In this document: positions 4,587 to 25,329 of the stretch, piece by piece
Numbering within the stretch: position 1 is the stretch's first letter
How the letters are laid out: each line of letters starts with the position of its first letter
IMG/VR virus record: IMGVR_UViG_3300008267_000175
Location: 1-34,165 of that record
Direction: 5' to 3' (one strand)
DNA from: a virus
Length of the DNA: 34,165 bases
Translations under genes and position numbers: made by a program
The notes under the pieces: model-generated
The model's database searches: none
What the model was told of the DNA's origin: nothing
What the model saw: the letters and a program-made list of their open reading frames with translations, nothing else

Positions 4587-6935
4587 ATGGCGTTTAATGA
4601 TACAATTTCACCATTAACTGGAACTTCAACATTTTATGATTGGTTCATAAAAGAAAATAATGAAATTATTTCTAAATTGAATTTAGCAACGGTTTCCGGT
4701 GTCACTAGTGGTGATGGGGTATTGGCATCATTGAACACTTCAAGTGGTGTTGTCACTGTTTCTATCGGTGGAACATCTGGTGTCATAAATACCGGATTAA
4801 CATTTGCTGGAGCAGTTAGTTTTAATGGTGAAATTGTAATTCCAAATATTTCATATAAGATTACTGGAATTACATCTGGAACTTCTGGATATACATTTGG
4901 ATCTGTAGTAAGAATTAATTCAGCGGGTTATACTACAGCAAAAGCAAATGATCCAGATTCAGCAGAAGTGGTTGGTGTGATTTCATCTAGAAATACATCA
5001 TATTCTGTTGTGACTCTTGCTGGTAGAATTAATGGAGATTTCACAGAAGTTGCTGGTGGTACTTTATCTCCAGGTTGTATTTATTTCTTAAGTGGAACAA
5101 CATCTGGTTATATAACAACAAGCGAACCCAATACTTTGGGTTATGTTTCAAAACCAGTTATTTTAGGAATAGGAGAAACTGCCGGGGTTGTTCTTCAATA
5201 CAGAGGCAATTATCTGAATGACTCGGGTGCAGATGGATTATCTGGAACAAATAAGATTTATGTTCAAATATCTAAATCAGCAACTAATCCTAGTAACTAT
5301 GGATTCTCCGCTGGTAACTTTATATCGTTTGCTCCAGACATTTTAGCAGGAAATACATTTTTTCATCAGTGGTTAACTAACACAGGAAGAACTGCAATAG
5401 ATGGTTGGTTCCTTAGTGGAAGTTATAATTACGCAAATAATCTAGTTGGCATTGTAGGAACACCAGACGCATCCACAACAATATTTAATTTTGCTCCTGA
5501 AGAAGATTTTATAGTTGGAATGATTGAATCTGTAAATGAATCCGCACCATCATATAACATATATCAAATTATTACTCATGGAACAACTACAGTAATTCCA
5601 TATTCAATATCAACCGCAGCAACCAAACAAGGAACTTGGTTAGTTTCTGGATTAACATATAACGTAAATGCTTCTGGTGTGACTGGACAACTAAGAATAC
5701 AAGACATTTATAAACCAGATACATCTTCAGGTTATTCTGTTCTTGGTCATGTTTTTGATACTTCTCCAACATATTGGTATGTTGATATCAAACCAATCAC
5801 ATATGTTGGTGTATCAAATCAAAGATCTACATCATCCACAGAATCATTGACAAATGGAATTAATTATTCGTTTAATGGAGACTTATCGATTTGGCAAAGA
5901 GATACTGGAAGAGACTCACAATATACAACTTCAGGAAACGTTTATTTTGCTGATAATTGGATAAGAAGACAGTCGGGAATAGCATCGGGAAGTTCTCAGT
6001 ATATTCAGAGACAGTCTTTTTCCGTCGCGAGTACTTCGGTTGAAGGAACTCCAGAATATTATGTTGATGTAAAATGTGTAGCAGATCCCGGTGGTGCAGA
6101 CCCATCTGGTGGAGTATATTCCATTGGTCATGTAATTGAAAATATTGAAACATTCAATGGAGAGGATGTAACTGTAAGTTTCTATGCTAAATGCAGTTTA
6201 TCTTCTTATTCTGCAAATGTTTATTTTGCAAGGTATTCTGGAGGATCGCAAGTTAGCAAAACAACAATTGGAACAATTGATCTTTCTACATCATGGACAA
6301 AACACACACTAACATATGATGTCAGTGCTTTATCAGCAGGAACATATAGTGATGATTATGTTGAAATTGGTATAGATTTAATACCACTCGTAGAAGAAGC
6401 ATATGACAATGCAGTTTCTACTGGAACTGCTCTCTATGTAAGTTTGGCATCGATGGCAGTATACAATGGATCATATTCTTCTCCTAAACATATATTTGAA
6501 CAATATGATGATAAGTTAAAGAAAGCAAGAAAGTTTTATTATACAACATATAAGGATACACAGACAACAGGTTCAAAAACCATGTTAACAGAAATTGATC
6601 CTGTATTAAATACCTTGTCATTTTCATATATTCCAACTGCTCCATTTGGAATATTCAAGTTCCCAACAATTATGCGAGAAGAACCAACAATTTCCGTTTA
6701 CTCACCCAAAGGTGTAGTGAACGAAATGTACAACTATACAGCAAATAGAGATTTGAAGGCAACATCGGGAACGATAGGATATTCAGGAGCAACCAGATCT
6801 GGTGGTACGCCTGGTGCTCAGACAGTATCATCATCCGCTGACACAACAACAGTTAAAATAAATATAAATGCTGGTGCCGTTCCATATGATGTAATTAATT
6901 TCCACTTGGTAGCAGATGCAAGTTATCCCATCTAA
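4587..6935 (+). CDS. Tail fibre protein with carbohydrate-binding-type domain
   Basis: A 782-residue protein with good Shine-Dalgarno GAGGAA (4577-4582). N-terminal residues 1-70 include a STFYDWFIKENNEIISKLN segment typical of fibre attachment ends. Residues about 98-211 form a compact beta module (GSVVRINSAGY..A, EVVGVIS, CIYFLSGTTSGYI, GVVLQYRG) that is repeated in the next gene. Near residue 429 starts FNGDLSIWQRDTG...ADNWIRR, the well-known 'NGxFxIWQRGTxF...ADRW' signature of phage fibre carbohydrate-binding-like domains. This is followed by a jelly-roll-like stretch and the FEQYDDKLKKARKFYY block, and the protein ends with the NFHLVADASY type C terminus seen in that family. Likely a receptor-binding or fibre-shaft subunit; the ligand is unknown. 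Confidence 0.75.
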   Translation: MAFNDTISPLTGTSTFYDWFIKENNEIISKLNLATVSGVTSGDGVLASLNTSSGVVTVSIGGTSGVINTGLTFAGAVSFNGEIVIPNISYKITGITSGTSGYTFGSVVRINSAGYTTAKANDPDSAEVVGVISSRNTSYSVVTLAGRINGDFTEVAGGTLSPGCIYFLSGTTSGYITTSEPNTLGYVSKPVILGIGETAGVVLQYRGNYLNDSGADGLSGTNKIYVQISKSATNPSNYGFSAGNFISFAPDILAGNTFFHQWLTNTGRTAIDGWFLSGSYNYANNLVGIVGTPDASTTIFNFAPEEDFIVGMIESVNESAPSYNIYQIITHGTTTVIPYSISTAATKQGTWLVSGLTYNVNASGVTGQLRIQDIYKPDTSSGYSVLGHVFDTSPTYWYVDIKPITYVGVSNQRSTSSTESLTNGINYSFNGDLSIWQRDTGRDSQYTTSGNVYFADNWIRRQSGIASGSSQYIQRQSFSVASTSVEGTPEYYVDVKCVADPGGADPSGGVYSIGHVIENIETFNGEDVTVSFYAKCSLSSYSANVYFARYSGGSQVSKTTIGTIDLSTSWTKHTLTYDVSALSAGTYSDDYVEIGIDLIPLVEEAYDNAVSTGTALYVSLASMAVYNGSYSSPKHIFEQYDDKLKKARKFYYTTYKDTQTTGSKTMLTEIDPVLNTLSFSYIPTAPFGIFKFPTIMREEPTISVYSPKGVVNEMYNYTANRDLKATSGTIGYSGATRSGGTPGAQTVSSSADTTTVKININAGAVPYDVINFHLVADASYPI

Positions 6936-6946: not shown

Positions 6947-8074
6947 ATGCCTAGTTGTAGCAACAGTTCAAATATACAAGCATCAATAAATACACTCAGC
7001 GTAACACAGGGTGGATCTAGATTATTAGTATCAATTCCTTATGTATCAGGACTAACACTAGGTCAAGTTGTTCGTTATGATGTTGCAAGTTCTGGATATA
7101 CTGCTTCTCGCGCAGATTTAGCAGAAACCTCAGAAGTTTTTGGTGTTATCGAATCATATGATTCAAACTCAAATAAATTTAATACAGTAATATATGGTTC
7201 CATAAGCGTCAACTCTTCTACTCTTGCCGATATGGGTAGTGGCGGTGGTTCTGGTGGAAATGACATCTATTTCCTAAGCGGTGTTACTGCTGGAAAGTTA
7301 CAAAATTTAGCACCAACAGATATTGATCACATAATTAAACCAGTTTATCAAGTATCTCCACATGGTTCATATACTGGCGTAATTGTAAATTATCTAGGAT
7401 ATAGAATTGGTGGAGAAATACAAGCATCATTTCAAAATGATACAAATCTTGGATCAATGCAAACTTTACTAGGAAATTCAGATTTTGAAACTGGATTCCT
7501 AGACGCTTCAATTTCACACGAATTACCAATTGCTGATTATCCGGAATTTTATGAAAAATTTGAAACAGAATATGGGTTTGTTGAAAAAATTACAGTAAGT
7601 GAATCAATACCTGGATCAATCACAGCAAATCTTGCAGTTACACAGACAACATCTTCATACTCGGGAACAATTACATCTGTAGATTATGCAAATAAACATA
7701 TTTATGTTTTAAGAAGACCAAATACAGATTTGGCATCTTTGACTAAACAAATTTCAATAACAACGTCATCATCTACAGTTAAATTAACGCCAACGACAAC
7801 ATCTGTGTATTCTGTATTTACTCCTATCATAAATCTTACACAACCAATAGCGGTCTATGGGAAAGATGGTTCAAATGTAAGCGTCACCCAAAATGTAAGA
7901 GTAGGAATAAAAGTTAAACCACAGGGTGTTCAGGTTGCGGTTCCAACAAATGTCACAACCGCATCATTAAAAGCAACAGAGTTAAAAATTGGTGTTGCGG
8001 AAGATGATTTGGAAACTTTATTAAATGATTTTGAAACAAGAATTGCAGCAATTGAATCTAGACTAAGAATGTAA
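6947..8074 (+). CDS. Short tail fibre / structural protein sharing a module with its neighbour
   Basis: A 375-residue protein, start preceded by GGAG. Residues about 34-155 repeat the module of the preceding gene: GQVVRYDVASSGYTASRA, EVFGVIES, IYFLSGVTAGKL, KPVYQVSP, GVIVNYLG. A GSGGGSGGND linker splits the module, as in flexible loops. The middle contains ASISHELPIADYPEFYEKFE; the end (about residues 340-375) is a predicted coiled coil, ATELKIGVAEDDLETLLNDF followed by ETRIAAIESRL, suitable for trimerisation of a fibre. The last residues are LRM. It probably forms a fibre or collar piece together with the upstream protein (inference). No named T4 homologue can be assigned. Confidence 0.6.
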   Translation: MPSCSNSSNIQASINTLSVTQGGSRLLVSIPYVSGLTLGQVVRYDVASSGYTASRADLAETSEVFGVIESYDSNSNKFNTVIYGSISVNSSTLADMGSGGGSGGNDIYFLSGVTAGKLQNLAPTDIDHIIKPVYQVSPHGSYTGVIVNYLGYRIGGEIQASFQNDTNLGSMQTLLGNSDFETGFLDASISHELPIADYPEFYEKFETEYGFVEKITVSESIPGSITANLAVTQTTSSYSGTITSVDYANKHIYVLRRPNTDLASLTKQISITTSSSTVKLTPTTTSVYSVFTPIINLTQPIAVYGKDGSNVSVTQNVRVGIKVKPQGVQVAVPTNVTTASLKATELKIGVAEDDLETLLNDFETRIAAIESRLRM

Positions 8075-8078: not shown

Positions 8079-11000
8079 ATGATTTACGGAAGCAGTCCAT
8101 ACGTTAAAAGAAATCTAGTAGGTTTAACTGGACCAACTGGTGAAACTGGAATAACCGGACCAACTGGTAACAATGGTCCAATAGGTCGAACAGGATCTAC
8201 TGGAAATACTGGTGCGAGTATTGTTGGAATGACCACAGATTCAAATGGATTTGTGATAACTACTTTTTCAGATAATACTGCTGTAAGTTCTCCAAAAATT
8301 AAAGGAACAACTGGTAACTATTATATTTTTGCTGATGGTGCGACCCAGACATCAGGAGTATTTGATATACTCTATGGTGTATGTTATGCATCAGACGATA
8401 CAGGTAACGTAATTGTTCCAACACTTACATTCCGTGGATTTACGACTGCATCTAAAAATGATAATTTACAATTTATTACAATAAACTCTTCCGATAGTTC
8501 AGAAGTAATTGGTATAACTTATAGTTTAGCAGCACTTCCATACCTTGGAATATCAGGTGGAAGTGATGGACAATTAATTGTTAGAGATCAGAGCACAAAT
8601 TTCTTTTACGGATTAACTGGAACAAAATATGATGTTCTAAAGCAAACCGTTGATATGCAAATTCTTAATTATGGTGAAAGAGTTCATTTTGTTGAACCGA
8701 TTAAGAAGACAAATTATGTCTTCTCTCCAACAGGAACACCATCTGCAACATCCGGAAGATATTTTGTTTGGAATATTGATTGGGAAAAAGCAAATACATT
8801 TATATTAAGTGAGTGGACTCACCTATTATTGGCGGGAGAAACCCCAACCACTCAAGTTGTATTGATAAGAAATACTCCGTCTGCGGATATAGCAAAAGGA
8901 ATTACAATTGTAGTTCCCTCTGGCATTACAGGATCAATATTAACAAAATATGCTGTTACAAATGATTTAACAGCAGGATTTACATTACAATCTGGCAATT
9001 ATTCAATATCTTGGCCACTAAAATATCCTCCATGTTTTACAGAAAATGTTGATGTTTTCAATATGATATCATTAGATGATGTTTGGTATGCCAACTATGG
9101 TATTTATGATTCAGAAACAAATCAACTAGAATGGAACGCAGATTATAATAATTGTCCAGGATCTGTAAATATAGAAGATCCGGGTTATATTCCACCACCA
9201 ACATATGTAACTTGTTGTTCTGGTGCTCCGGATTATGTTTGTCAAACATCAGTCGAAACTGGTGGATGTATTTCTCCAAATTATGTAGTTTCATCGTGTG
9301 ACGGTTGTGCAGATGATCCACCAGAACCAGAATATGAAAACTGTTGCTCTGGTGCTCCGTTTTATGAATGTAACCCTAATCAATTAAAAGGAACATGCAA
9401 TCAACCAGGATATTTTGTTGTATCTGACTGCATTCAATGTCAATATGTTCCTCCTACAAAAAAATGGTGCTGTCCCGGTTCTCCAACATATACATGTATC
9501 GAAGTGGACATAACAGATCCATGTACTGGATATTCAACACAAGCGGAATGTGAAAGTAATTGTGAACCACCACCACCAGTGCCTGGATTGTGTTGTGATT
9601 CCTGTACTGGTATATCGTATGATTCTAATGATAATGCTGGTTGTTCTCAGTATGGTCCGGAATTTCAATTTAAACCAAACGATTATGTAGGAAATCCAAA
9701 TAGTAAGTGCGTTCCCAATAGCAGCACATTTGGCGTTTGTTGTTATTTAGACCAAAATGATCAATATCAAAAAGAATCAAATTTTGTATTAGAATGTGAT
9801 TGTGCGAATAATGTAAATAATGTTGCAAATCGATATATCTGGATAGAAAAAACAGATTGTATTAAAGATCCAGCAGCAATAGATTGTACAGATGCATTTA
9901 CAGATAAAGGTGCATGTTGTGATGGATTTGGAAATTGTACACCTTCAACAACTATTGGAAATTGTACAAATTATTGGCAAGGAAAGGGTAGAAAGTGTTC
10001 TTATACTTACAATACAAATCAAACATTTAACGTATGCTCTGACGGCACCGCTGGATGTTGTAATAATGTAAATGGTGTATGTACAGATGTAACAGGACAA
10101 AGTAATTGTATTGGTAGATTTTATGGATGTGGTCATTTATGCGGGGATCCAACTGTTCCTCCATGCATCGATACTGTTCCTGAAACTTTATGTGAATATT
10201 CAAACGGACCTTATTATATAAGAAAAACAGATGGATCACACTTAACGTTAAATAAAGGTGATGAATTTGCAGGAGGAATTGTTGTTGGAATATTTAATCC
10301 AAATGGAGCGCAGTGTTTTGGAAATACTGCATTTGGTGGATATCGTCCAGCAGATTTAAATCAGGATGGTTCATATTCTGGTGGCACTATTATCAAACAA
10401 AGAACTGATTTTAATTTTTATACAGGATCAACACTTGCTGACGGTTCTGTAGAAAGACCATGTGGAAATTATCAAAGTCAATATGAAATAACTGGTTATG
10501 GATTTACAGCACCAGATGGTGGAGGACCAACAAACAATGATTCATGGTTATTAATTGTTTCTAAATTACCTGTAATGTTTAGAGAATTTGTTAGAACAAA
10601 TTCTGGTGCTCCTGGAAATAATGCTATTAAATTATTAAATCCTGCTTATGGTCCAAATACATCAAATTTACCAACAATAACTCCGGGTGCTGGTGCAAAT
10701 ACCTGGGATGTCTGGTCAAGTTTTGGACCAAATTCTAATTGTTTAAATTGTAATCCACTACAATGGGAAAATACTTCACAGACTACTAGATCACAGGCAT
10801 TCTATGGTTCGGGCATTCAAAGTCAATTTTATTACACCGATGTAAAGTCATTCATATGGTCACATGGTGGAACTTCGTTTTGTGATATTGAATTTAACAC
10901 ATTACTACAACAAAATCCTTCTTTATCTGGTAATATCTACACACCAGGAGAAGGAAATAATTGTTATATTAATATGGCATCAACTACACCGGGATTCAAT

Positions 11001-12281
11001 GTAGTCGTTGGTAATTATCCACCAATATTATCAGCAAATAATAGTTTTGAAACCTATAGAAATCATGATGATGGATCATTTGGTTATGCATATACCAATT
11101 TAACACATTTCCGTGGTCTGTTTTATATGTTTGGATCCTGTTCTGATGCAAATGGAGTGTGTTCGGAGTGTGAGTCTGATCCATTGTTAAGATCTTTTAG
11201 ATATTATTCTGCCTCTAGAAATTCTACAACTGGGAAATGGTCAAAAAATTTTGGATTAGAAAATACGATTGCTCTTATCAAATCGTCAATGGCAGAATAT
11301 TATCTTTATAATGCTTCTGCTAACGTTTTTCCAAAAATAACAAATTCCACTGGAAGTACAATTACATTAAAAACTTTATATGGTGCAACAGGTTCAGCAG
11401 AATATAATCCACTATATACTGTTGCTGATGGACCAACACAAAGAACAACTGTTGCCGAAGGATGTTCAGTTTGGAATAGATTATATTATCCAGTTGACAA
11501 TCCATTAACAGATACAGCAGCAACATCAGAAATAAATTGTCAAAATATTAGAGCATTTAAACCTTATATTGGAGAAAATTCATTAAAAATACCACAAATT
11601 TCAAGATGGTATGTTCCAAGTATAGACGAACTTGCATTTATAGCAAAAGCATGTAGAGATGAACAATTACAACAAAAAATATTAGATTCTGGTGGAATTG
11701 CTATTGGAGACACACAAATAAACAATCCTGAAGGATGGTTAACAACGGCAAATCCTCTACCAACAGGAATAAATGGTCAATCTGATATAAGATCTTATGT
11801 TTGGTCATCGACTGGGACATGGAAAGATGGAGCAACACTACAATATGTACAAAGAGATCTTACATCTACTTCTTCGTGGTCCCTTGCAGCAGATCCATTG
11901 ACATCACAAACAGATCCAGGATTAACCTTTGGAACTCGACAATTTACTGATGTGTGGGCAATTAAATTTAGTCCAACAGATCCTACAAATACAAATAGTT
12001 ATAAAGTATCAAAAGTGAATGATTTTAAAGATAGATTAGAACTAAGACTTGTCAGAATGGTTCGTTGTGATCAAAGATATTATAATGATTCTGCTGGTCC
12101 TGGTTTTGCCTATCCGACTACAAGAACTAAATTTTGGCAAGTACCGAGATTAACACTTTCCACTGTTGCATCTGGCGGATCTCCTCTTTCTTTTGCAGGA
12201 AGTGTGAATAAATATGTTGGGTCAGATTTCAATGGTAGCGTATTTGTTGAACTTCCAACAATATTTCAATACACAACATAA
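8079..12281 (+). CDS. Giant adhesin: collagen-like stalk, Cys-rich rod, C-type-lectin-like tip
   Basis: A 1400-residue protein, the largest here. Residues 15-45 are a collagen-like run of ten to eleven Gly-X-Y triplets rich in GPTG and GNTG. Residues about 50-375 are beta-rich fibre text. C379 to C705 is a cysteine-rich rod that includes three copies of CC(S/P)G(A/S)P-x-Y-x-C beginning at C379, C422 and C464, about 43 residues apart. A GDEFAGGIVVGIF motif starts near residue 727. The tip has DUF1566/Lcl_C-type motifs: WYVPSIDELA at 1177-1186, VWSST at 1241-1245, then WAIKF and ELRLVRMVRC near 1326. A 70-residue tail follows. The first six residues, MIYGSS, are shared with the next gene. No strong Shine-Dalgarno sequence is visible. 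Probable host-binding fibre; the receptor is unknown. Confidence 0.7.
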   Translation: MIYGSSPYVKRNLVGLTGPTGETGITGPTGNNGPIGRTGSTGNTGASIVGMTTDSNGFVITTFSDNTAVSSPKIKGTTGNYYIFADGATQTSGVFDILYGVCYASDDTGNVIVPTLTFRGFTTASKNDNLQFITINSSDSSEVIGITYSLAALPYLGISGGSDGQLIVRDQSTNFFYGLTGTKYDVLKQTVDMQILNYGERVHFVEPIKKTNYVFSPTGTPSATSGRYFVWNIDWEKANTFILSEWTHLLLAGETPTTQVVLIRNTPSADIAKGITIVVPSGITGSILTKYAVTNDLTAGFTLQSGNYSISWPLKYPPCFTENVDVFNMISLDDVWYANYGIYDSETNQLEWNADYNNCPGSVNIEDPGYIPPPTYVTCCSGAPDYVCQTSVETGGCISPNYVVSSCDGCADDPPEPEYENCCSGAPFYECNPNQLKGTCNQPGYFVVSDCIQCQYVPPTKKWCCPGSPTYTCIEVDITDPCTGYSTQAECESNCEPPPPVPGLCCDSCTGISYDSNDNAGCSQYGPEFQFKPNDYVGNPNSKCVPNSSTFGVCCYLDQNDQYQKESNFVLECDCANNVNNVANRYIWIEKTDCIKDPAAIDCTDAFTDKGACCDGFGNCTPSTTIGNCTNYWQGKGRKCSYTYNTNQTFNVCSDGTAGCCNNVNGVCTDVTGQSNCIGRFYGCGHLCGDPTVPPCIDTVPETLCEYSNGPYYIRKTDGSHLTLNKGDEFAGGIVVGIFNPNGAQCFGNTAFGGYRPADLNQDGSYSGGTIIKQRTDFNFYTGSTLADGSVERPCGNYQSQYEITGYGFTAPDGGGPTNNDSWLLIVSKLPVMFREFVRTNSGAPGNNAIKLLNPAYGPNTSNLPTITPGAGANTWDVWSSFGPNSNCLNCNPLQWENTSQTTRSQAFYGSGIQSQFYYTDVKSFIWSHGGTSFCDIEFNTLLQQNPSLSGNIYTPGEGNNCYINMASTTPGFNVVVGNYPPILSANNSFETYRNHDDGSFGYAYTNLTHFRGLFYMFGSCSDANGVCSECESDPLLRSFRYYSASRNSTTGKWSKNFGLENTIALIKSSMAEYYLYNASANVFPKITNSTGSTITLKTLYGATGSAEYNPLYTVADGPTQRTTVAEGCSVWNRLYYPVDNPLTDTAATSEINCQNIRAFKPYIGENSLKIPQISRWYVPSIDELAFIAKACRDEQLQQKILDSGGIAIGDTQINNPEGWLTTANPLPTGINGQSDIRSYVWSSTGTWKDGATLQYVQRDLTSTSSWSLAADPLTSQTDPGLTFGTRQFTDVWAIKFSPTDPTNTNSYKVSKVNDFKDRLELRLVRMVRCDQRYYNDSAGPGFAYPTTRTKFWQVPRLTLSTVASGGSPLSFAGSVNKYVGSDFNGSVFVELPTIFQYTT
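9213..10193 (+). repeat. Cysteine-rich repeat rod in the 8079 adhesin
   Basis: This encodes C379-C705. Three close copies of CC(S/P)G(A/S)P-x-Y-x-C start at 9213, 9342 and 9468, followed by more divergent units such as GACCDGFGNC and GCCNNVNGVC. Each unit has a CC pair, then a C about 6-9 residues later and further single Cys residues. The copies are similar at protein level but differ in DNA, so the duplication is not recent. Confidence 0.75.
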
Positions 12282-12290
12282 TCAACTATA

Positions 12291-15200
12291 ATGATATACG
12301 GTTCATCACGCATCATCCAATTAGTATCAAATGCCGTTCCAGGAGCAGCAATTGGTGCAACAGGTTTAACAGGTCCAACAGGATCAACAGGTCCAACAGG
12401 ATCAACTGGTAATATAGGTCCAAATGGAGTAACAGGATCAGGAATTACTGGTGCAACGTATTTTGGTTCTACAGTTACATTTTTAGGTAATGGTAAAACA
12501 TTTGAGTTTTCTGGATTGCAGGGTGATGCTGGCGTATCAACAGGAAATGAAGTGGTTGCATTTGTTGATTTGGGAATAAATTCAGAAGTAAAAATATCTT
12601 CAGATTATGTTTATAGTAATTTTCAAATAGGTTATGGTGGAACCGCTCAGTTTAAATCTTTAACTATTTCTGGATCTGTTCCACAAACAATAGTTTCTGG
12701 TAATTTTGTTGGAATTACTTCAAATAACTTTACAGTAACACTATATGGTGCAACTGTTTTGGATGCAAATGTTCCATTTGGAAATACTGGAGAAATTCTT
12801 TATATAAACAGCAACGCAGGATTTGGAACAACTCCACTTAAGGCAGCGGCGGCACCGGGAACAAAATGGGTTCCATCCGAACGTCAACTGATCATAAATC
12901 AAATTTTTAGCAGAGAAGCAATATACTCAAATAAAAATTGGAAATCTTCTTCCGCATCATGGTCTTTGCCAGCAAATTATAATGCAACATTAAATTATTA
13001 TCAAGGAATAACTGGTGAAACTTACGGTACATCACTTATTGAGAATGTAATAAGTCCAAATTTTGTTTGGAACAATACAACAAATGAATTTAATCTTCCG
13101 ATAGATTATACTGGTGTAGCATTATCTCCATCGATAATTATTGGGTTTACAAGTGGTGCTACGATGGAAAGAATTTCTTTCCTTTCACATTCAGGAATAT
13201 CTCAAGCAAATATATACGCTCCTCAAAATCTGACATTGGATAATATTGGTTCGTGTTGTTTATGTAAATCGGATGGATCCCAAACAGTTTGTTTAGATTA
13301 TGTTTCTAAACTTTATTGTGATTCTGTGTCTGGTTTGTTTAGCACAAGTTCATGTGTAAACAGAACAGGAGCATCTGGTTCTGGATGTTACTTCGAAGGT
13401 GCTTGTTGTACATATGATCCAATCACAGATTCTACTCGTTGTGTAAATACTACTGCTGAAAAATGCACAGAATTTGGTGGACTTTTTAATGAAGGAGAAT
13501 CTTGTAACAATGTTTGGATAGGAAATAATTTATTTACATGTCCATCAAATATTTGTACAGCAGGAACAAGACAAATAGGAAAGTGTTGTGTTCAAGGAAG
13601 ATGTTATAATTTATCTCAACAGGATTGTAACTCTATCTTTAATTCGGTATTTGTTGCTGGATCTACATGCGAATCCGAAGAAGGAGATCCAGTATGTTGC
13701 GCGCAAACAGTAGACCTCGAAGGTGCATGTTGCACTGGACAAAATTGTGTAGTGAAAAGTGCTTCTCAATGTGCGGAAGATAATGGAATATTTCAAGGAT
13801 CCGGTGTTCCTTGTTCAACCACGACATGCTGTGGTTACGCATATAATGATCCATATTTCATCGGTGATGAAGCAAATAGTTGCAAAGCACTTGGACAAAA
13901 TCAAACATATTCGTGTCTAAAGGTTGGCGATAAACTTGGTGGTGGTTACTTTGTTGGATTTGTTGGAATGCCAAATCCATGTGATCCATACGTTAATCCG
14001 ACACTGGCACATGGTGAACCACTTGAGTGTTTAATATATCCAAGAGGTCAGTTTACTAATTTCCCATATTGGCCTTATAAAACATGTAAGGGTGGTAACG
14101 GAACAGATAACACAGGAACAATTGATTATTTTGCAAGAACATATCCTGGTGTTTTACCAATAATATCAAAAAGAAATAAATGTTTTTCGAAAGCAGGAGC
14201 TCCATTTGTACAACAAGCGTATAATTTAAATGGTGTTACATGGCCTTCAGAAATCTTATTTGAAGGTGGATTTAATTATACACCAAATAGAGGATTATAT
14301 TCATATTCATTGGTTGGTTCTGGTCTTGCTGTTGAATATTTTGATGAAGGTGATAACTTATATAAGTATCTCGCATCTAAAGTTTATGGAGATACAGACA
14401 TTCATATATTGTGGGCATTGATAATTGCTCCTGAAGACGTTGAAATATCAAGTGCTGTTGGTGGTGAACCCGGTGGATCAAGACAACTTAGTTGGGGAAT
14501 GATGCAGGGATGTCATCTAGCAAACGATACTGGTGTACCTATTGAAGTCGTAAATGAAGAAATTCCAACATATCCAGTTGATGGATTATTAACAACAAGA
14601 CTTCACGATTCTTATTCATTGAATAATCCAAGTTATTGGTTTAGAAGCACAACATCAGATCCAAACGCATATAAGAGATTTAGTTTTGGAAATGGTCCAG
14701 CATGGGATTCAACAGTATCTGAAGAAGTAATTACAAATGACATTGATGCATTTAAAGTTGCGTATTCGAATATGTGGTCAAACAAAAATCCACTTACTTC
14801 AGCAATTCGTCAAATATCGGATATAAATGCAACAAATTCATATGGACACAATGATTGGTATATCCCAAGTATCATTGAATTGAATTATATTTACAATAAT
14901 TTAGCAGATTTAAATGCTGCTCTTGCAATTAACGACTCTCAAATTATTGGAGGAAATGAATATTGGAGTTCAACTAGCGTTAGTAGACTTCAATCTTGGA
15001 GTGTATTTGATCCATATGATAAAGATCAATATGTATTAGAAAATATAGATTCAAATATAGAACCATATCTTTCAAGTAATAGACTAACAAGTGAAAATTC
15101 ATATGGTTTGACAGAAGACGATGCTTACAAGTTTACTATGGCAGTCGCAAATGGTCAAAAAATGTTAACTCAAGTATTTAATGGAATCTCTACTACCGAT

Positions 15201-15416
15201 GGTATGATGCGTTCAAGAAATAGAAATGCGAGAGTTGCAAATCTAAGACCTGTTAGAAGAATTCCACTTGTCGTGACTTGTAAAAACTTTTACTATACTC
15301 AGAGTATATTAGATTTTACAATTACATCTAATTGTTCTTCGTGTCTAGATATTAAAGCAAATCTTTGTGATCAGCATTTAGAAGGTCCAGAACGTTGTCC
15401 AGGATGTCCAGTATAA
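12291..15416 (+). CDS. Adhesin: collagen-like stalk, GACC repeats, C-type-lectin-like tip
   Basis: A 1041-residue paralogue of the preceding gene. It starts with the same MIYGSS, then has Gly-X-Y triplets from G22 to G49 (GATGLTGPTGSTGPTGSTG...). C322 to C514 holds four cysteine repeats of the form G-x-CC-x(n)-C-x(6-9)-C-x(3-4)-G-x-(F/W)...C, such as GACCTGQNCVV. Near residue 545 is GDKLGGGYFVGF, the counterpart of GDEFAGGIVVGIF in the previous protein. The tip has DWYIPSIIEL (D855 onward) and EYWSSTS (E890 onward), then ARVANLRPVRRIPL, a DUF1566/Lcl_C-type arrangement with the typical R-x-VR end. A terminal Cys-rich tail (CSSCLDIKANLC...CPGCPV) follows. The gap from the previous gene is 9 bases with no clear ribosome-binding site, suggesting coupled translation. 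Probable receptor-binding fibre. Confidence 0.7.
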   Translation: MIYGSSRIIQLVSNAVPGAAIGATGLTGPTGSTGPTGSTGNIGPNGVTGSGITGATYFGSTVTFLGNGKTFEFSGLQGDAGVSTGNEVVAFVDLGINSEVKISSDYVYSNFQIGYGGTAQFKSLTISGSVPQTIVSGNFVGITSNNFTVTLYGATVLDANVPFGNTGEILYINSNAGFGTTPLKAAAAPGTKWVPSERQLIINQIFSREAIYSNKNWKSSSASWSLPANYNATLNYYQGITGETYGTSLIENVISPNFVWNNTTNEFNLPIDYTGVALSPSIIIGFTSGATMERISFLSHSGISQANIYAPQNLTLDNIGSCCLCKSDGSQTVCLDYVSKLYCDSVSGLFSTSSCVNRTGASGSGCYFEGACCTYDPITDSTRCVNTTAEKCTEFGGLFNEGESCNNVWIGNNLFTCPSNICTAGTRQIGKCCVQGRCYNLSQQDCNSIFNSVFVAGSTCESEEGDPVCCAQTVDLEGACCTGQNCVVKSASQCAEDNGIFQGSGVPCSTTTCCGYAYNDPYFIGDEANSCKALGQNQTYSCLKVGDKLGGGYFVGFVGMPNPCDPYVNPTLAHGEPLECLIYPRGQFTNFPYWPYKTCKGGNGTDNTGTIDYFARTYPGVLPIISKRNKCFSKAGAPFVQQAYNLNGVTWPSEILFEGGFNYTPNRGLYSYSLVGSGLAVEYFDEGDNLYKYLASKVYGDTDIHILWALIIAPEDVEISSAVGGEPGGSRQLSWGMMQGCHLANDTGVPIEVVNEEIPTYPVDGLLTTRLHDSYSLNNPSYWFRSTTSDPNAYKRFSFGNGPAWDSTVSEEVITNDIDAFKVAYSNMWSNKNPLTSAIRQISDINATNSYGHNDWYIPSIIELNYIYNNLADLNAALAINDSQIIGGNEYWSSTSVSRLQSWSVFDPYDKDQYVLENIDSNIEPYLSSNRLTSENSYGLTEDDAYKFTMAVANGQKMLTQVFNGISTTDGMMRSRNRNARVANLRPVRRIPLVVTCKNFYYTQSILDFTITSNCSSCLDIKANLCDQHLEGPERCPGCPV
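12372..12407 (+). repeat. Two 18-base tandem units in the collagen-like stalk
   Basis: Units GGTCCAACAGGATCAACA and the next copy, which differs only in the last base, run in frame and encode GPTGSTGPTGST. Near identity at DNA level points to recent duplication by slippage or unequal exchange. Confidence 0.85.
13254..13832 (+). repeat. Cysteine-rich GACC-type repeats in the 12291 adhesin
   Basis: This encodes C322-C514: four units beginning SCCLC, ACCTY, KCCVQ and ACCTG, about 40-50 residues apart. Each has a CC pair, a third Cys, a fourth Cys before a Gly-aromatic turn, and a fifth Cys. Confidence 0.75.
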
Positions 15417-15431
15417 TTTAAAGGAAATAAT

Positions 15432-18400
15432 GTGAGTAGCAGTGCAGTAATTAATTTTACAGTTTATGGTCCAACTGGAAATCAGGGGCCGCAAGGAAGC
15501 ACAGGTGCCACTGGTGCCACTGGTGCCACTGGTGCCACTGGTATCACTGGACCAAGAGGAGTCTATTACACAGAGTCTACATCTGCTGGAAACTCAATCA
15601 TTTTTACACTTTCAGACGGCACAACTTTAGGTGTTAGTGGTTCATTTAGAGGTGCAACGACATCTGATAAAACTATAGGTGCAATTCGTGGTGAAAATGT
15701 AGGAAGCGGAGAGGGTCTATTAAGAACTATTTCGGGTGGAACATTTACATTTAAAGGAATATGTGCATATGGTTCTTTAAGAGCATCATATACTGGACCC
15801 AATAACGAATATATTTCAATAGATTCAATTTATTGGGGATATGATCTTCCTGGAAATTATGATCCATCAACGATGTCGGGAAGAGAACTTTTATATCTTG
15901 AAACTCCTGTTCTTGTAGCAGGAGCAGATTTAAAACATCATCCTCTTATTGCTAATGATATTCAATCTGGTATATGTGGTGCTTTTGGGTTTACATTTAC
16001 CGAAAATCCAGATACCACTAGCCATTTAAACGCTGGATCAAAAATTTTAAGAGTAGGTCCATTTAAAAAGGGAACTCTCGTCGGTTTAACTGGATTATAT
16101 AATAATACAAATGGAACAACTCAAGGTATATTTTTAGATGCAAATGCTGCTGGTGTTTTTATTCTTAAAACACCAATAGGTGTACAGGGAATCACGGGAT
16201 CATTTAGAAAAAATGAAATTGCATCAATAACCGTAATGGTTGAATCTGATGACGTTTGGAGATTCCCAACAAACATCTATTTTGAACCAGATGAAAATTA
16301 TTTGTCTTGTGGTAAGAATATAATTGGTCTTATGTCATATGATGCTGGAGCAACTTGGTTGGCAACAGTTTCACATAGAGGTCACGGAATTGAAAATGCA
16401 GGAAGACAATGTATTCCCGGTTATATTTACGGATCTTGTTGTTATAGAAATGCGGATTCAACTCTAGAGTGTATTGATTATACTTCAAAAAGTGTATGTG
16501 ACAGATTATTTGGTTCATTCAGTCCAGCAAAAACATGTGAAGAGTCATGTACATTGTCAAATGGCGTTTGCTGTACAAATGGAAAATGCATTGAAAACGT
16601 TTCAATAACTTTGTGTGATACTTTTGGTGGACAATATTGGGAAAATATTGATTGTGATCAGTATAATTCTGAAGGATTCAATTATCCTACAGGAAATCTT
16701 TCTGAACTAGAAATAAAACAACAAGGAAGATTTTGTTACAATTATTGTTCCGAAGATGAAAATGATCAAGCGGTTTGTTGTAAAAATGGAGAATGTCTTG
16801 GAAAGTATACAAGAGCACAATGTGAACTTGTTCTTGGTGGAAAATCAGTGCAAACGACAACTGGTTGTAATGGTGTTGATTGTTGTGATTATAGTGTAAT
16901 AGATGGTGCTTGTTGTGTTTGTAATGCAGAAACAAACACATATACATGTAGTGTACAATCAGTTGCTGCGTGTAAAGAAGCAAATGGTGTGTTCATGGGA
17001 CCAGGATCACAATGTGCTGATGTGAGTTGTGGATGTGTTTGTGGGGGTGGAGAAGAACAAGATGGTCTTGGATGTTGCTATGATCCAAATGGTCCACCAT
17101 ATAATTGTACACAAACAACTTTGCAAGATTGTCCCACTAAGTATACTTGGAGTGAAGGTTCAAGTTGTGATGAATGTACAGGTGGTGGTGGGAGTGGTCA
17201 AATAGGAATGTGTTGTCAAACAACCACATCGGATGGTGTCACTACAGTACTATGTCTAGGAGATCAATATTCGCAAGGCGATTGTAGTGGACCTGGACAG
17301 GTTTGGACTCAAAATGGTTCTTGTAATACATGCACTTTCCAACAAACAACACAAGGAATTTGCTGTAAGAATGGCGCATGTCAGTCTGGTGTTACAACAA
17401 AACAACAGTGTGATGCTGCTTGTGGTCATTGGATATCATCGATAAGTGTTCGAACAGAACCATGTACATCTGATGGAAATGGAAACGTAACATGTGGTGG
17501 CACTGTACACACTTATAACTTTGGTCAAAATACTACTACTGAATGTGAAATATGTTCTCTTTCTAGACCTATCTTTTGGTCACCAATATCAATTAGTCCA
17601 TATGGAGTTACATGTGATATTCCTGCTATTGGTAATGAATCATTTGCTGAACAATTTGATGCTCCAAATCAATTTTGGAAAGGATATAAGTTAGGATTTG
17701 ACAAATCTTATAGTTGTTACACAAGATCAGATGGTACATCGGCGGATCTTGTATTTAATCATAAAGGTCATTTTTATGTAATTCCTGGATTGCCTTCAAC
17801 TATAACACAAACGAATCTATTGAATGCAATTAAAAATATATTTAAACCAAGCGTTAGTCTTGAAAATTTAACAAATGCAACTTATCAAACATTAAATTCT
17901 TATTATTACTACATTTATAAACCAGCCACGCCGAATCAAAATTGGGAAACATTTATAGAATATATTGAAAATGAATTATGTACACAGAGTGCTCCTGGTT
18001 GTGCTACTTGTAGTTGTGATGGCGATATAGAGTGTGCTCCAACTACATCACAAACTCCAGAGTTTTCTGTTTTTGCAAATTTTGATTTTTTTGATTCACC
18101 AACAATTGAATATAGTTTGTTGGGTGATCCAAATTCATGTTCACAATTTGGAGATGGTAATTATGTATTTAGACTCAGTTGTAATATTAATGAAGCATGT
18201 ACTCCAGATTGTGAAGAATCTTCTGGTTGCGGACAACCACCACCATCAATATGTACAATAACACAAATTGGACCAGGAATAAATCCAAGCGATAATCCAT
18301 ATCCATTAGAATTCGATTTACCAATATGGTCTTCACAGGATGAAATACTTCCACCATGTCCAATAACTCCAGCATGTGCCTCTAGTGGATATACAAAAAA

Positions 18401-18482
18401 TGCAAAAATAACTATAAATAATGAAGACTATTGTTTGCCTATAATATGTACAGATGATTGTGATGATTTTGAAACATGCTAA
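15432..18482 (+). CDS. Adhesin: collagen-like stalk and seven-unit Cys-rich rod
   Basis: A 1016-residue protein with a GTG start, preceded by AAAGGAA (15420-15426). An ATG at 15430 reads straight into TGA, so GTG at 15432 is the usable start. Gly-X-Y triplets run from G13 to G43, including four consecutive GAT triplets. Beta-rich text follows. C336 to C708 holds about seven cysteine units (SCCYR, VCCTN, VCCKN, ACCVC, GCCYD, MCCQT, ICCKN), the longest such rod here. Unlike its neighbours it lacks the WYxPSIxEL/WSST tip. Instead it has a Tyr-rich segment (SYYYYIYKP) and a second Cys-rich C terminus (about residues 855-1016) ending DDFETC. A different tip suggests a different ligand, or a shaft role (inference). 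Confidence 0.65.
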   Translation: MSSSAVINFTVYGPTGNQGPQGSTGATGATGATGATGITGPRGVYYTESTSAGNSIIFTLSDGTTLGVSGSFRGATTSDKTIGAIRGENVGSGEGLLRTISGGTFTFKGICAYGSLRASYTGPNNEYISIDSIYWGYDLPGNYDPSTMSGRELLYLETPVLVAGADLKHHPLIANDIQSGICGAFGFTFTENPDTTSHLNAGSKILRVGPFKKGTLVGLTGLYNNTNGTTQGIFLDANAAGVFILKTPIGVQGITGSFRKNEIASITVMVESDDVWRFPTNIYFEPDENYLSCGKNIIGLMSYDAGATWLATVSHRGHGIENAGRQCIPGYIYGSCCYRNADSTLECIDYTSKSVCDRLFGSFSPAKTCEESCTLSNGVCCTNGKCIENVSITLCDTFGGQYWENIDCDQYNSEGFNYPTGNLSELEIKQQGRFCYNYCSEDENDQAVCCKNGECLGKYTRAQCELVLGGKSVQTTTGCNGVDCCDYSVIDGACCVCNAETNTYTCSVQSVAACKEANGVFMGPGSQCADVSCGCVCGGGEEQDGLGCCYDPNGPPYNCTQTTLQDCPTKYTWSEGSSCDECTGGGGSGQIGMCCQTTTSDGVTTVLCLGDQYSQGDCSGPGQVWTQNGSCNTCTFQQTTQGICCKNGACQSGVTTKQQCDAACGHWISSISVRTEPCTSDGNGNVTCGGTVHTYNFGQNTTTECEICSLSRPIFWSPISISPYGVTCDIPAIGNESFAEQFDAPNQFWKGYKLGFDKSYSCYTRSDGTSADLVFNHKGHFYVIPGLPSTITQTNLLNAIKNIFKPSVSLENLTNATYQTLNSYYYYIYKPATPNQNWETFIEYIENELCTQSAPGCATCSCDGDIECAPTTSQTPEFSVFANFDFFDSPTIEYSLLGDPNSCSQFGDGNYVFRLSCNINEACTPDCEESSGCGQPPPSICTITQIGPGINPSDNPYPLEFDLPIWSSQDEILPPCPITPACASSGYTKNAKITINNEDYCLPIICTDDCDDFETC
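15504..15539 (+). repeat. Four identical 9-base units GGTGCCACT in the collagen-like stalk
   Basis: Four exact copies encode GATGATGATGAT, followed by the near copy GGTATCACT. Perfect identity including the third codon positions, in otherwise A/T-ending DNA, shows recent slippage expansion. Confidence 0.95.
16437..17555 (+). repeat. Seven-unit cysteine-rich rod in the 15432 adhesin
   Basis: This encodes C336-C708. Units start at each G-x-CC (or GCC) and run about 35-55 residues, with the general pattern CC...C...C...G-x-(F/Y/W)...C. DNA copies are diverged, so this rod is older than the collagen triplet expansion. Confidence 0.75.
18413..18420 (+). promoter_or_regulatory. Possible late promoter octamer TATAAATA inside the 15432 gene
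   Basis: An exact late -10 match, ending 75 bases before ATG 18496 and inside the 3' end of the upstream coding sequence. The distance is longer than for the other promoters here, so chance occurrence is a real alternative. Confidence 0.35.
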
Positions 18483-18495
18483 AAGAGTAAAATAA

Positions 18496-20007
18496 ATGAC
18501 CATACAGTTTAGATCCAGAATAAAACCAGCAATAGATTACTCGACCATATTAAATTCATATGGTGTTTGTTGTGGAATCACCGGATCAACTGGACCATTA
18601 AAATCCTTTATTGAATGTTTTAATGAGGGTGGGCATTTTATACCTGTAAAAAATGAAGATCCAAATTCAGTTTCATGTCCAGATGTTGATATTAGAAGAG
18701 GATGCTGTTGTTCGTGTTCATATGTAACACCAGGGGAACTCAATCAAATACCAACATATTCAACTCCATTTACAGGAATCCCATATATTTCATCTGGTGT
18801 TAGAAGTAATGTTTCTAAATGTGAATGTGATCGTATTGGTGGAAAATGGACTGAAGGTGAATGTCCAACATTATCTTCTACTAATTGGCAAAATCTGTGC
18901 GTAAAAGAAAATCAAGATGTTCGTGCTCCAAGAGCATGTTGTCATTTGGGATTTGATGTTGATACTGGTTGGCCAACAGAAATTATTTGTACAGACGTTT
19001 GCACTTCAGTTGATTGTGCAAATCTAGGAACAGATGTATATCCTTCTGTTTTTACAGATAATAAAAGATGCGGAATTCCACCATTAAATTCAGGTGATAT
19101 TCCGGTTCAATGCGAACAAAGTGAATACGTTACTAAAATGGCACTTTCCACTCGCCTATATGAAGGGTTTCAAATGGGTTCATGTTATGAATTAGAACTT
19201 AATGATGAAAACACCTATGAATATACATGTTCGATTACTCCAGAATCAATTTGCACTGGTTATTGGGTACAAGAACAAAATGAAAATTATCCATATTGCA
19301 CATCATCATATCAACCAACAAATCCAGTAAAATCAAACAACAGATATTTATCACAAACAATGACTTTGAGTGATTTTAATAATTATGGTCTTACTTCTGG
19401 TGATGAGTTTCATGGTGGAATATATATTGGAATATTCAAACCATCACCTCTTAATGGTGAAAGTAGTTTAGTAAGAGGTAATCTTGCTTTTGGAACACCT
19501 TCTTCCTATAAATTTATTGGTGATGATATTGGTGGAACTTCCTCACAGTGGGCAATAATTGTTGATCCAGTTGAATACACGGTTCCATTTCTAAATGAAG
19601 ATGAAAGAGATATTCATTATCAAACATCATTATGGGATGGTTATTATAACACATATGGAGATAATTCTAATTTTTATGGAATACAAACTGCGCTTACAAA
19701 AACAATAGCAAATCAACCACGAAATGGATTTTTAGATTATTATCTACCATCGATATATGAACTAAGTTTTTATTGTCAATATCTCTATAACAAAAATCAG
19801 TCACTAGATGCAAATTTAATATCTTCAAGTATTTTTAGCAGTAAGTACTTGAATTCATCAACAAATAAAAGTAAAATAAATAACAAAACATTTATATACG
19901 GTCATTCTCTATCAACAGATCTGGGAGTTAATAATTTTAAAAATGTTCTTATATATAAAAAGAACACAGAAACTGCATTGTTTTTTAGACGTATAATTTT
20001 AACATAA
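18496..20007 (+). CDS. Short adhesin: Cys-rich region plus degenerate C-type-lectin-like tip
   Basis: A 503-residue member of the same adhesin family with most of the stalk missing. Near residues 25-33 it has CCGITGSTGP, only a few Gly-X-Y residues and merged with the first CC pair. C25 to C268 is cysteine-rich (RGCCCSCSY, CECDRIGGKW, RACCHLG, GSCYELE). GDEFHGGIYIGIF starts at about G302 and matches the pre-tip motif of the 8079 gene. The tip has DYYLPSIYELSF around residues 414-425, parallel to WYVPSIDEL, but the WSST motif is replaced (KYLNSSTNKSK) and the end is FFRRIILT. It may be a shortened receptor-binding or accessory fibre protein; the function of a degenerate tip is uncertain. Confidence 0.6.
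   Translation: MTIQFRSRIKPAIDYSTILNSYGVCCGITGSTGPLKSFIECFNEGGHFIPVKNEDPNSVSCPDVDIRRGCCCSCSYVTPGELNQIPTYSTPFTGIPYISSGVRSNVSKCECDRIGGKWTEGECPTLSSTNWQNLCVKENQDVRAPRACCHLGFDVDTGWPTEIICTDVCTSVDCANLGTDVYPSVFTDNKRCGIPPLNSGDIPVQCEQSEYVTKMALSTRLYEGFQMGSCYELELNDENTYEYTCSITPESICTGYWVQEQNENYPYCTSSYQPTNPVKSNNRYLSQTMTLSDFNNYGLTSGDEFHGGIYIGIFKPSPLNGESSLVRGNLAFGTPSSYKFIGDDIGGTSSQWAIIVDPVEYTVPFLNEDERDIHYQTSLWDGYYNTYGDNSNFYGIQTALTKTIANQPRNGFLDYYLPSIYELSFYCQYLYNKNQSLDANLISSSIFSSKYLNSSTNKSKINNKTFIYGHSLSTDLGVNNFKNVLIYKKNTETALFFRRIILT
18568..19299 (+). repeat. Cysteine-rich region of the short adhesin
   Basis: This encodes C25-C268. It includes a CCC-S-C cluster, the CECDRIGGKW turn and later CC/C units. The spacing is less regular than in the other three adhesins. 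Confidence 0.6.
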
Positions 20008-20008
20008 T

Positions 20009-20012
20009 GGAG
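20009..20012 (+). promoter_or_regulatory. Shine-Dalgarno GGAG that sets start 20019
   Basis: GGAG lies 6 bases before ATG 20019. The alternative ATG at 20007 overlaps the previous stop and has no site in front of it, so 20019 is preferred. Confidence 0.75.
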
Positions 20013-20018
20013 TATATC

Positions 20019-20588
20019 ATGGGATGCAATTGTAAAAACAAAAATAAAACAACGCAAGAACAAAATCCAGCACCAGAAAACACACAACAAGAACAAGTTT
20101 CTTTTAGAAAAGAAGAAATAAAAAAAGAATCAGGAATTAAAGAAAAATTAACAATGATGCAGAGTTTTGCTACGGCGATAGCATCTCGCGGCATTAGTAA
20201 TGAAAAAGTTACAATTCCAATGAAGCAATTGAGAGTTGCTTCTTGTTTTGGAAATCAAAATCAAGGAGGAATTTTACCTCCATGTGAACATCTAAAACAA
20301 AGTCAAACTCCTGGTAAGTTCTTTTGTGGGGGTTGTGGTTGTGGAGACAGAAAGGGAACTTGGTTAATTTCTGAAGGCGATGAATATTCAAAATTAGATT
20401 ATCCAAAACTTTCTTGTCCGCTACAAATGCCTGGATTTTCTAATTATTCAAAATCTAAACCAGATGAGGCAAATGCTCCAATAACTAGAAGATACTATAT
20501 TGAACAAATGGCATATAAAGATATAGAAAAGATACCAGTAAAAACACACGAAGCACCAATAACACCTCCAAAAGAAGAAACAAAATAA
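20019..20588 (+). CDS. Unknown small Cys-rich protein with C-x2-C-x-C cluster
   Basis: A 189-residue protein starting MGCNCKNKNK. After a polar Gln/Glu/Lys-rich N terminus, a compact cysteine-rich domain holds C76, C89 (CEH), C103-x2-C106-x-C108 in FFCGGCGCGDRKGTW, and C133 in YPKLSCPLQMPGF. Six Cys plus H91 in this spacing suggest a bound zinc ion or an iron-sulfur cluster (inference). The C terminus is Pro/Lys/Glu-rich. It is the last gene of the adhesin operon, directly before a terminator. I do not recognise a named family. It could be a small virion protein or a factor for assembling the cysteine-rich fibres. Confidence 0.6.
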   Translation: MGCNCKNKNKTTQEQNPAPENTQQEQVSFRKEEIKKESGIKEKLTMMQSFATAIASRGISNEKVTIPMKQLRVASCFGNQNQGGILPPCEHLKQSQTPGKFFCGGCGCGDRKGTWLISEGDEYSKLDYPKLSCPLQMPGFSNYSKSKPDEANAPITRRYYIEQMAYKDIEKIPVKTHEAPITPPKEETK

Positions 20589-20631: not shown

Positions 20632-21432
20632 ATGTCTGTACCAAATTCAAGACAAACCCTTATAGAACACAGTCTTCGTACACTTGGACACCCTGTAATT
20701 CAAATTAACGTAGATCAGCAGCAATGCGAAGATCGTCTTGACGAAGCATTACAGTTTTTCCAAGAACGTCATTTTGATGGAGTGCAAAAAGTTTATTTTA
20801 AATATTTAATGACACAAACCGATATTGATCGTGGATTTGTTGAATTGGAAGATATTGATACTCCTTCGGGAGATCCTGATGGTCCAAATGGAGAAAACAT
20901 TCTCTCAGTAATAAAAGTTTTTAGATTTGGAACATTATCTGGTGTTAATATGTTTGACATCAGATATCAATTGGCATTGACCGATTATTTCGGAATAAAC
21001 AGAGGATTGAATGGAAGTCAATCAACACCTCTTGCTGGCTATCATGTAACCATGTCATATATTAGTTTACTTGAACAATTTTTTAGTCCAGAAAAATCAG
21101 TTAGATTTAGCAAAGTAACAAATAAAATTTATCTTGATGCATTATCACAAGATATATCCGCTGGACAATATATTGTCATAGAAGCATATGCTAGTTTAGA
21201 TCCAGATGTTCATACAAAAATATATAATGACCGTCTTCTTAAAAAATACTTAACAGCACTCATTAAAAGGCAATGGGGATCAAATATGTTAAAGTATGAT
21301 GGTGTTCAACTTCCAGGTGGTATTACATTCAAAGGTCAACAGATATTTCAAGATGCTATGGCAGAGATAGCAGCAATAGAACAAGAATTCTACTTAACTC
21401 ACGAACTCCCAGTAGATTTCATAATGGGATAA
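20632..21432 (+). CDS. 13: Neck protein gp13 (head completion)
   Basis: A 266-residue protein (T4 gp13 is 309). The N terminus has the conserved helix RQTLIEHSLRTLGHPVIQIN followed by VDQQQCEDRLDEALQFFQERHFDG, a hallmark of T4-type gp13. C-terminal LLKKYLTALIKRQWGSNMLK and GGITFKGQQIFQDA also fit. In T4, gp13 and gp14 form the neck that closes the portal after packaging and allows tail joining. It is the first gene of a new transcription unit, behind a late promoter and a GGAG site located in the terminator. Gene order (13-14-15-16-17) confirms the call. Confidence 0.9.
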   Translation: MSVPNSRQTLIEHSLRTLGHPVIQINVDQQQCEDRLDEALQFFQERHFDGVQKVYFKYLMTQTDIDRGFVELEDIDTPSGDPDGPNGENILSVIKVFRFGTLSGVNMFDIRYQLALTDYFGINRGLNGSQSTPLAGYHVTMSYISLLEQFFSPEKSVRFSKVTNKIYLDALSQDISAGQYIVIEAYASLDPDVHTKIYNDRLLKKYLTALIKRQWGSNMLKYDGVQLPGGITFKGQQIFQDAMAEIAAIEQEFYLTHELPVDFIMG

Positions 21433-21435
21433 TAT

Positions 21436-22359: not shown

Positions 22360-23111
22360 TGTTTACAGTAACACAATCATTCTATAATGAATCCATAAGA
22401 AAAATAGTTATTGCTTTTGGATCACTATTTGAATCTGTTTATGTAACAAGATTTGAAGAAGATGGATCAGAACAACAAAAGATTCGTGTTCCTTTAAGTT
22501 ATGGAAGTAAAGAAAAATTTATATGGAAATTAACTCAAGAGAGTAGTTTATCTAAAAATAGTAGAGTTCAAATCGTTCTTCCAAAATTAGGATTTGAAAT
22601 CACAACTATGATATATGATCCATCAAGAAAATTAAACAGATTGACTCAGAGAGCAGAAGTTGTGAGTGGAGCATTGAAAAAAGTATATGCAGAAGTTCCA
22701 TACAATATAAACTTTTCATTATATGCTTTTACAAGAAATATGGATGATATGTTACAAATCATTGAGCAAATATTGCCTTATTTTGCTCCAGATTATACAG
22801 TAACTATAAAAATGAATGATGTTCATGACAGTGTGGACATTCCGTTTATATTAAATAGTGTAAATCTCAATGAAGATTATGAGGGAACATTTGAAAACAG
22901 AAGAGCACTAATTAGTACTTTTGATTTTACATGTAAGAGTTACATATATCCAAATATATGTGGTGGAACTGGAGGTCTTATTGAAAGAACTGATGTCAAC
23001 TTCTTTGAAGGTTCGGGAACTACTGCCGCAAGTAATTATGTGAGAGATGTTGGTTATACTGGAGACTTTATTACTGGAAACACCACTTTGGTGATTGGAG
23101 ATTGGCCATGA
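22359..23111 (+). CDS. 15: Tail terminator / sheath stabiliser gp15
   Basis: A 250-residue protein (T4 gp15 is 272). It begins MFTVTQSFYNESIRKIVIAF, then GSLFESVYVTRFEEDGSEQQ, KIRVPLSYGSKEKF, RVQIVLPKLGFEI and NRLTQRAEV, the conserved order of T4-type gp15. Also NINFSLYAFTRNMDDMLQII and EQILPYFAPDYTVTI. In T4, a gp15 hexamer caps the tail tube and sheath and docks to the neck. ATG 22359 is chosen because GGAG precedes it and the stop of gp14 overlaps by one base. It ends ATGA-overlapped with gp16. Confidence 0.92.
   Translation: MFTVTQSFYNESIRKIVIAFGSLFESVYVTRFEEDGSEQQKIRVPLSYGSKEKFIWKLTQESSLSKNSRVQIVLPKLGFEITTMIYDPSRKLNRLTQRAEVVSGALKKVYAEVPYNINFSLYAFTRNMDDMLQIIEQILPYFAPDYTVTIKMNDVHDSVDIPFILNSVNLNEDYEGTFENRRALISTFDFTCKSYIYPNICGGTGGLIERTDVNFFEGSGTTAASNYVRDVGYTGDFITGNTTLVIGDWP
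23097..23100 (+). promoter_or_regulatory. Shine-Dalgarno GGAG for gp16 start 23108
   Basis: GGAG inside the gp15 3' end, 7 bases before ATG 23108. A TTG at 23102 is in frame but too close to the site. Confidence 0.7.
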
Positions 23112-25301: not shown

Positions 25302-25329
25302 AGAGAATACAAATTTAAAAAAAAATACA

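Follow-up and report, generated by a model that had tools for sequence, protein, structure and literature searches.

The viral record IMGVR_UViG_3300008267_000175, whose entire stretch of 34,165 bases was analysed here (hereafter the window), is part of the genome of a T4-type myovirus that belongs to an uncultured lineage. Four adjacent genes in it, named A to D in this study, probably form a receptor-binding array whose four fixed slots lie at or close to the baseplate, and in which two adhesins (B and D) are conserved and two (A and C) diversify rapidly. This asymmetry between conserved and diverging slots is the new element. T4-type phages are abundant in water, but most receptor-binding proteins of their uncultured lineages match nothing and so carry no annotation; for one such lineage, the array supplies an ordered signature by which it can be recognised.

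Family searches located baseplate-wedge-type proteins at 119-2082 and gp13, gp14, gp15, gp16, gp17, gp18, gp19, and gp20, in this order, at 20632-28764, with prohead protease and scaffold genes after gp20. The portal and capsid proteins were 48-57% identical to those of cyanophages, Pelagibacter phage Mosig, and Methylophilales phages, and Shine-Dalgarno-like sequences were present upstream of gp13, gp18, gp20, and gp23. Searches for tRNAs and Rfam families found none, photosystem genes, a marker of a cyanobacterial host, were absent from 12 relatives, and gene D had no relative in bacterial genomes. The sole match in bacterial genomes was a gp17 relative (54%) at 740-2341 of L071, a contig binned in a Flavobacteriales MAG; this is too little to name the host, and the host link is uncertain. 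In another relative (L047, 15045-18880), gp17 matches were spread over separate ORFs, perhaps owing to an intron or an inserted gene in the terminase.

The four consecutive ORFs have exactly the coordinates and lengths given in the first-pass annotation: A, 8079..12281 (1400 aa); B, 12291..15416 (1041 aa); C, 15432..18482 (1016 aa); and D, 18496..20007 (503 aa), all on the + strand, as are the other features given below in the form start..end. A, B, and C each contain a collagen run, an N domain, and a cysteine rod, followed in A by a large, variable DUF1566-type tip with insertions, in B by a conserved Lcl_C tip, and in C by a hypervariable distal part. D has no collagen run and consists of a cysteine module and a compact DUF1566-fold tip. 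A 375-aa gene at 6947..8074 (named "pre"), which likely encodes a baseplate or attachment protein, precedes the array in every contig long enough. It has a domain of ~118 aa in common with the 782-aa gene at 4587-6935 (37-43% identity in relatives), possibly a repeated baseplate attachment domain. Between D and the neck protein gene gp13 (20632..21432), used as the anchor gene, lies a gene for a conserved 193-aa protein (20007..20588) at the position of T4 wac; the protein has 8 cysteines, shows 56-80% identity in relatives, and has no counterpart in the family libraries or in cultured phages. The placement of the array where T4 has genes 9-12 and wac agrees with the baseplate-wedge-type matches upstream and gp13 to gp20 downstream. 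That A-D might be secreted or host-surface proteins expressed late, and not virion parts, would suit the role of Legionella Lcl, a bacterial surface adhesin (PMC11162425), and a cysteine content that is unusually high for proteins assembled in the cytoplasm. Nevertheless, we consider this very unlikely, because the genes lie inside the T4-type structural cluster in a fixed order and their products have no obvious N-terminal signal peptide by eye (MIYGSS..., MTIQFRSR...).

The gene-neighbourhood search suggested at the outset recovered the A-D architecture in viral metagenomes, and the order pre-A-B-C-D-193aa-gp13 was found in all relative contigs long enough to show it. Two deep marine contigs also have this layout (gp13 of L056 being ~50% identical): slot 1 holds a DUF1566-type gene and slot 2 one that combines collagen and CC, after which come a giant C homologue of 2615-3078 aa and D. 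Among viral metagenome contigs, B alone as query gave 5 loci, and profile searches gave 13 loci for B, 48 for D, and 13 for C, counts that overlap because several loci are views of one contig or near-identical phages (e.g., L009, L010, and L013); D is the most widespread gene of the array. P0001 alone as query found no relative among the viral contigs. By tblastn, A, B, and C had no match in 50,697 cultured-phage records, and neither did the 193-aa protein nor the D and C proteins of a marine relative in the phage collection, where gene D was queried only via this distant relative.

The Gly-X-Y runs span 33 residues in A (11 triplets, residues 15-47, 8121..8219), 30 in B (10 triplets, residues 22-51, 12354..12443), and 33 in C (11 triplets, residues 13-45, 15468..15566), lengths reached by none of 2000 composition-preserving shuffles, the chance test applied to runs and motifs alike. 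By contrast, the longest run in D, 9 residues, was reached by 326 of the 2000 and is at chance level, so that the collagen-like triplets first ascribed to all four genes hold for A, B, and C but not for D. PF01391 scored 22.5 (A), 15.3 (B), and 24.0 bits (C), under its cut-off of 27.2, and 27.7 bits for the C orthologue of L010; PHROG tail-fibre matches to the array genes rest on the collagen stretch. With only 10-11 triplets, which measure ~9 nm in collagen, this stretch is more like a neck than a long stalk.

CC motifs number 7 in A, 6 in B, 8 in C, and 4 in D, and G-x-C-C occurs above chance in each of the four genes (0-11 of 2000 shuffles), in keeping with the CC-repeat regions originally described; the cysteines are conserved in orthologues of the array genes. 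These regions comprise residues 379-690 of A (9213..10148), in which the number of CC units varies among relatives, the rod of B (residues 320-517, 13248..13841), the conserved rod of C (residues 334-540, 16431..17051), and the module of D (residues 23-285, 18562..19350), where many cysteine positions are invariant in 29 relatives. As judged from profile comparison of the sequences, homology links the CC regions of B and C (probability 99.4) and likely those of A and B (94.7), whereas the D module has no detectable relation to the rods of A-C. The first-pass annotation had spoken of related stalks and rods; the relation holds for the rods of A-C, but not for that of D, and does not extend to the stalks beyond the collagen run, as the domains that follow this run in A, B, and C are without detectable homology. 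A common origin of these N domains is accordingly not supported. The cysteine-module rod itself, brought to light here, had no match in Pfam, nor by sequence in PDB. In the marine C homologues, cysteines are very numerous: L057 (745-9981) encodes 3078 aa with 359 cysteines and 59 CC pairs, and L056 (2142-9989) encodes 2615 aa with 279 cysteines and 39 CC pairs.

The PSI-x-EL motif is present in three of the four genes, as first reported: WYVPSIDEL with VWSST in A, WYIPSIIEL with YWSST in B, and YYLPSIYEL in D, C having none. The tip coordinates proposed earlier covered the C-terminal half, but the tips begin further upstream, at a conserved G-D-x-x-x-G-G located by sequence at approximately residue 716 in A, 536 in B, and 287 in D. 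The A tip thus delimited (residues 716-1340, 10224..12098) carries GDEFAGG ... WYVPSIDEL ... VWSST ... RLVRMVRC; the B tip extends over residues 536-1000 (13896..15290) and the D tip over residues 287-503 (19354..20004). Large insertions lie ahead of the PSI-EL motif in A and B, and none in D, and profile comparison of the three tips shows only short common motifs (22-32 columns, probability 64-83). PF07603 (Lcl_C, formerly DUF1566; curated cut-off, 34.9 bits) matched B of the window at 14793-15005 with 28.3-32.7 bits, below the cut-off, and B in 15 of 26 relative records searched, three of them above it. In A, nine relatives matched at 14.8-21 bits, all below the cut-off and assigned to A by coordinates, and slot 1 of one marine relative matched as well; the A sequence of the window gave no Pfam Lcl_C match, and gene D no PF07603 sequence match.

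A structure model of D built from 29 sequences had a mean pLDDT of 83.7, with the tip mostly >90. Its four best BFVD matches were all DUF1566 proteins (E 2.9e-4, 3.1e-4, 6.3e-3, and 0.018; probability 0.99-1.00), and its top PDB matches were C-type-lectin-like, though not significant (E 0.39). According to this model, the D tip is a compact, conserved member of the DUF1566 fold and therefore not the degenerate copy it had been taken for. Of the structure models proposed as a check on the fold, only that of D gave such a match; the model of the B rod and tip was poor (pLDDT 44), and the fold of B is consequently assigned from its sequence. The B-tip profile had Lcl-CTD (8Q4E) as its sole match in PDB, a weak one (E 0.81), and PDB sequence searches with D, the A tip, the B tip alone, and the C distal part returned nothing. 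The lectin-like character attributed to the tips is thus upheld by sequence for B in 15 relative contigs and for A in 9, and by fold for D, which places Lcl-type tips in contractile-tail phages.

Gene C has no DUF1566/Lcl_C domain, and its distal region (residues 541-985, 17052..18386), which belongs to differing families in different phages, has no recognised fold and no Pfam or PDB match; Pfam searches on the C proteins of other phages found collagen only. Past this variable part, the last ~31 residues (18387..18479) are conserved again, with the pattern N-[AV]-K-[IV]-x-I-N-N-x-x-x-C-[IL]-P. Comparison of the window with L007 showed 93% identity for gp17 and 72% for the C N-part, and distal parts common only over the last 30 residues. 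Between L010 and L014, most genes were 94-99% identical and the C distal parts 64% (a value obtained with L009, which has the same C as L010), with a CC-rich insertion of ~150 residues setting them apart. A small number of distal-part families turn up repeatedly in different phages, as in the window and L033 (33% over 449 aa). Simple replacement does not hold everywhere, as the distal parts are diverged homologues with indels of CC units in some pairs and of an unrelated family in others. Two relatives (L003, 13033-16215; L006, 13033-16185) have, unlike the window, C distal parts with long Pro/Ser-rich linkers (PPPPPTSPPPPP, poly-Ser). In L012 (5861-9150), gene C is seemingly split into ORFs of 706 and 396 aa, by a frameshift, a sequencing error, or a real split.

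Median identities between contigs were 75% for gp13, 56% for the B tip and 51% for the B rod, 50% for the D tip and 43% for the D N-part, 50% for the C N-part, 50% for the C rod and 17% for the C distal part, and 48% for the A N-part, 28% for the A tip and 21% for the A rod. Hence, the tips of B and D are conserved to the same degree as their own stalks, whereas the A tip and the C distal part diverge sharply while their bases are conserved. The conserved-N, diverse-C pattern of candidate receptor-binding proteins is accordingly seen in A and C, in B only between the freshwater type and the marine type, and not in D. In the marine contigs, the slot 2 gene retains a B-type N-part and rod (33%, E ~1e-20) and has no recognisable DUF1566 tip. 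Together with the C patterns, this matches the trace expected from an exchange of tips on conserved bases, and recombination may have been the route; relaxed constraint can also explain the faster change of the A tip and the C distal part.

The presence of two fast-changing and two conserved adhesins suggests a division of labour in gripping the host. The roles could instead be mixed, with A and C binding receptors and B and D being mainly structural proteins of the baseplate or collar (whisker-like) that use DUF1566 for assembly or trimerisation. D, with its 48 loci, adjoins the wac-position gene and gp13, the DUF1566 domain could promote trimer formation (PMC11162425), and tips conserved like their own stalks would fit such a role. 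But a conserved receptor would likewise conserve the tips, and gene size, CC modules, and the common tip type point to an A-like function, so that we regard mixed roles as rather unlikely. The known ligands of Lcl, sulphated glycosaminoglycans and fucoidan (PMC11162425), raise another reading, in which A-D are display adhesins that bind particles, mucus-like polymer, or other non-host glycans and keep the phage near its hosts; it appears improbable, since the position among baseplate genes and the fast divergence of tips are better fitted by host recognition. Hypermutation of the lectin-like tips by a diversity-generating retroelement (DGR) is the least credible of these explanations. DUF1566 and C-type-lectin domains have been reported as DGR targets (PMC6642488, PMC10743442), but no reverse transcriptase (PF00078) was found in 18 related records, fragments of up to 118 kb, and DGR mutagenesis is therefore not supported; moreover, A and C vary by insertions and module exchange, not by point changes at fixed sites.

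Under the four-slot receptor-binding array that we favour, A, B, and C would each attach to the particle through a short conserved N-terminus, followed by a short collagen-like run that probably brings about trimerisation, a further N domain, and stacked small cysteine-paired (CC) modules serving as a spacer, while D, lacking collagen, would rely on an N-terminus and a CC module of its own. The DUF1566/Lcl_C (C-type-lectin-like) tips of A, B, and D would likely contact envelope glycans, and C would present a rapidly changing non-DUF1566 distal region with conserved sequence on either side. B and D might then provide a constant grip, perhaps on a common primary receptor or in core attachment, and A and C a variable grip that tunes strain range. 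The A tip would diverge by mutation and insertions; in the C distal part, CC units would be gained and lost and sequence replaced, with recombination between the conserved flanks as the probable route. More tentatively, each slot may have its own conserved base and rod, with two conserved lectin-like tips and two positions open for tip exchange, and the CC-module rod may be a new fibre building block. With constant and variable parts named, the search for the receptor and for the determinants of strain range can be directed to the appropriate domains.

In T4, the genes upstream of gp13 include those for gp12 and wac (fibritin), the attachment fibres of tail and neck. A-D share this position, but they are cysteine-rich, A-C are much larger, and no PHROG or Pfam match to gp12 or fibritin was found in them. 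Collagen repeats and major tropism determinant (Mtd) domains have been reported in a marine T4-type structural operon, and the host recognition cluster of pelagimyophages and cyanomyophages occupies the same genomic place, the variable region between VrlC and gp14 (PMC7029224). In contrast to A-D, which are adjacent and in fixed order, that cluster lacks synteny, is of greater size, and has metabolic genes interspersed (Mosig, S-SSM7); these two reference genomes gave no Lcl_C match. Multiple phage proteins with a C-type-lectin domain in a single genome are also described for Tentaclins and other gut phage DGR targets (PMC10743442), but the Tentaclins described there carry an N-terminal lectin followed by Ig domains and are DGR-hypermutated, whereas the tips of A, B, and D are C-terminal and a reverse transcriptase was not found.

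The first-pass annotation knew of no described T4-type system with this domain order in tandem. This holds for the cultured phages searched, but the general layout is known from Ackermannviridae, in which several tail adhesins follow one another, their bases conserved and their tips exchanged (PMC8432352, PMC11414711). In these phages (Kuttervirus, e.g., CBA120), up to four receptor-binding genes, TSP1-TSP4, are clustered beside baseplate genes, and conserved N-terminal parts carry diverse C-terminal receptor modules exchanged by recombination (PMC8432352, PMC11414711, PMC8825819). Their tailspikes are joined via gp10-like XD and TD domains in a branched complex; A-D are instead composed of collagen runs, CC modules, and DUF1566 tips; among their four tips, two are conserved, and no Pfam, PHROG, or NCBIfam match to XD/TD-type or tailspike receptor modules was found in them. 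In Legionella Lcl (PDB 8Q4E, 8QK8; PF07603), a collagen-like region likewise precedes a C-terminal DUF1566 domain, of the Lcl_C type that B matches; Lcl-CTD is a C-type-lectin-like trimer behind the collagen-like region and binds sulphated glycans (PMC11162425). Lcl differs in being a bacterial surface protein with a compact tip that lacks the large A/B insertions and with no CC rod described, and A and B scored 16.6 and 11.6 bits, over the collagen stretch only, against the equivalog cut-off of 500 bits of NF046116 (Lcl adhesin). A-D are thus closest in layout to the tailspike clusters of Ackermannviridae and in building blocks to Legionella Lcl.
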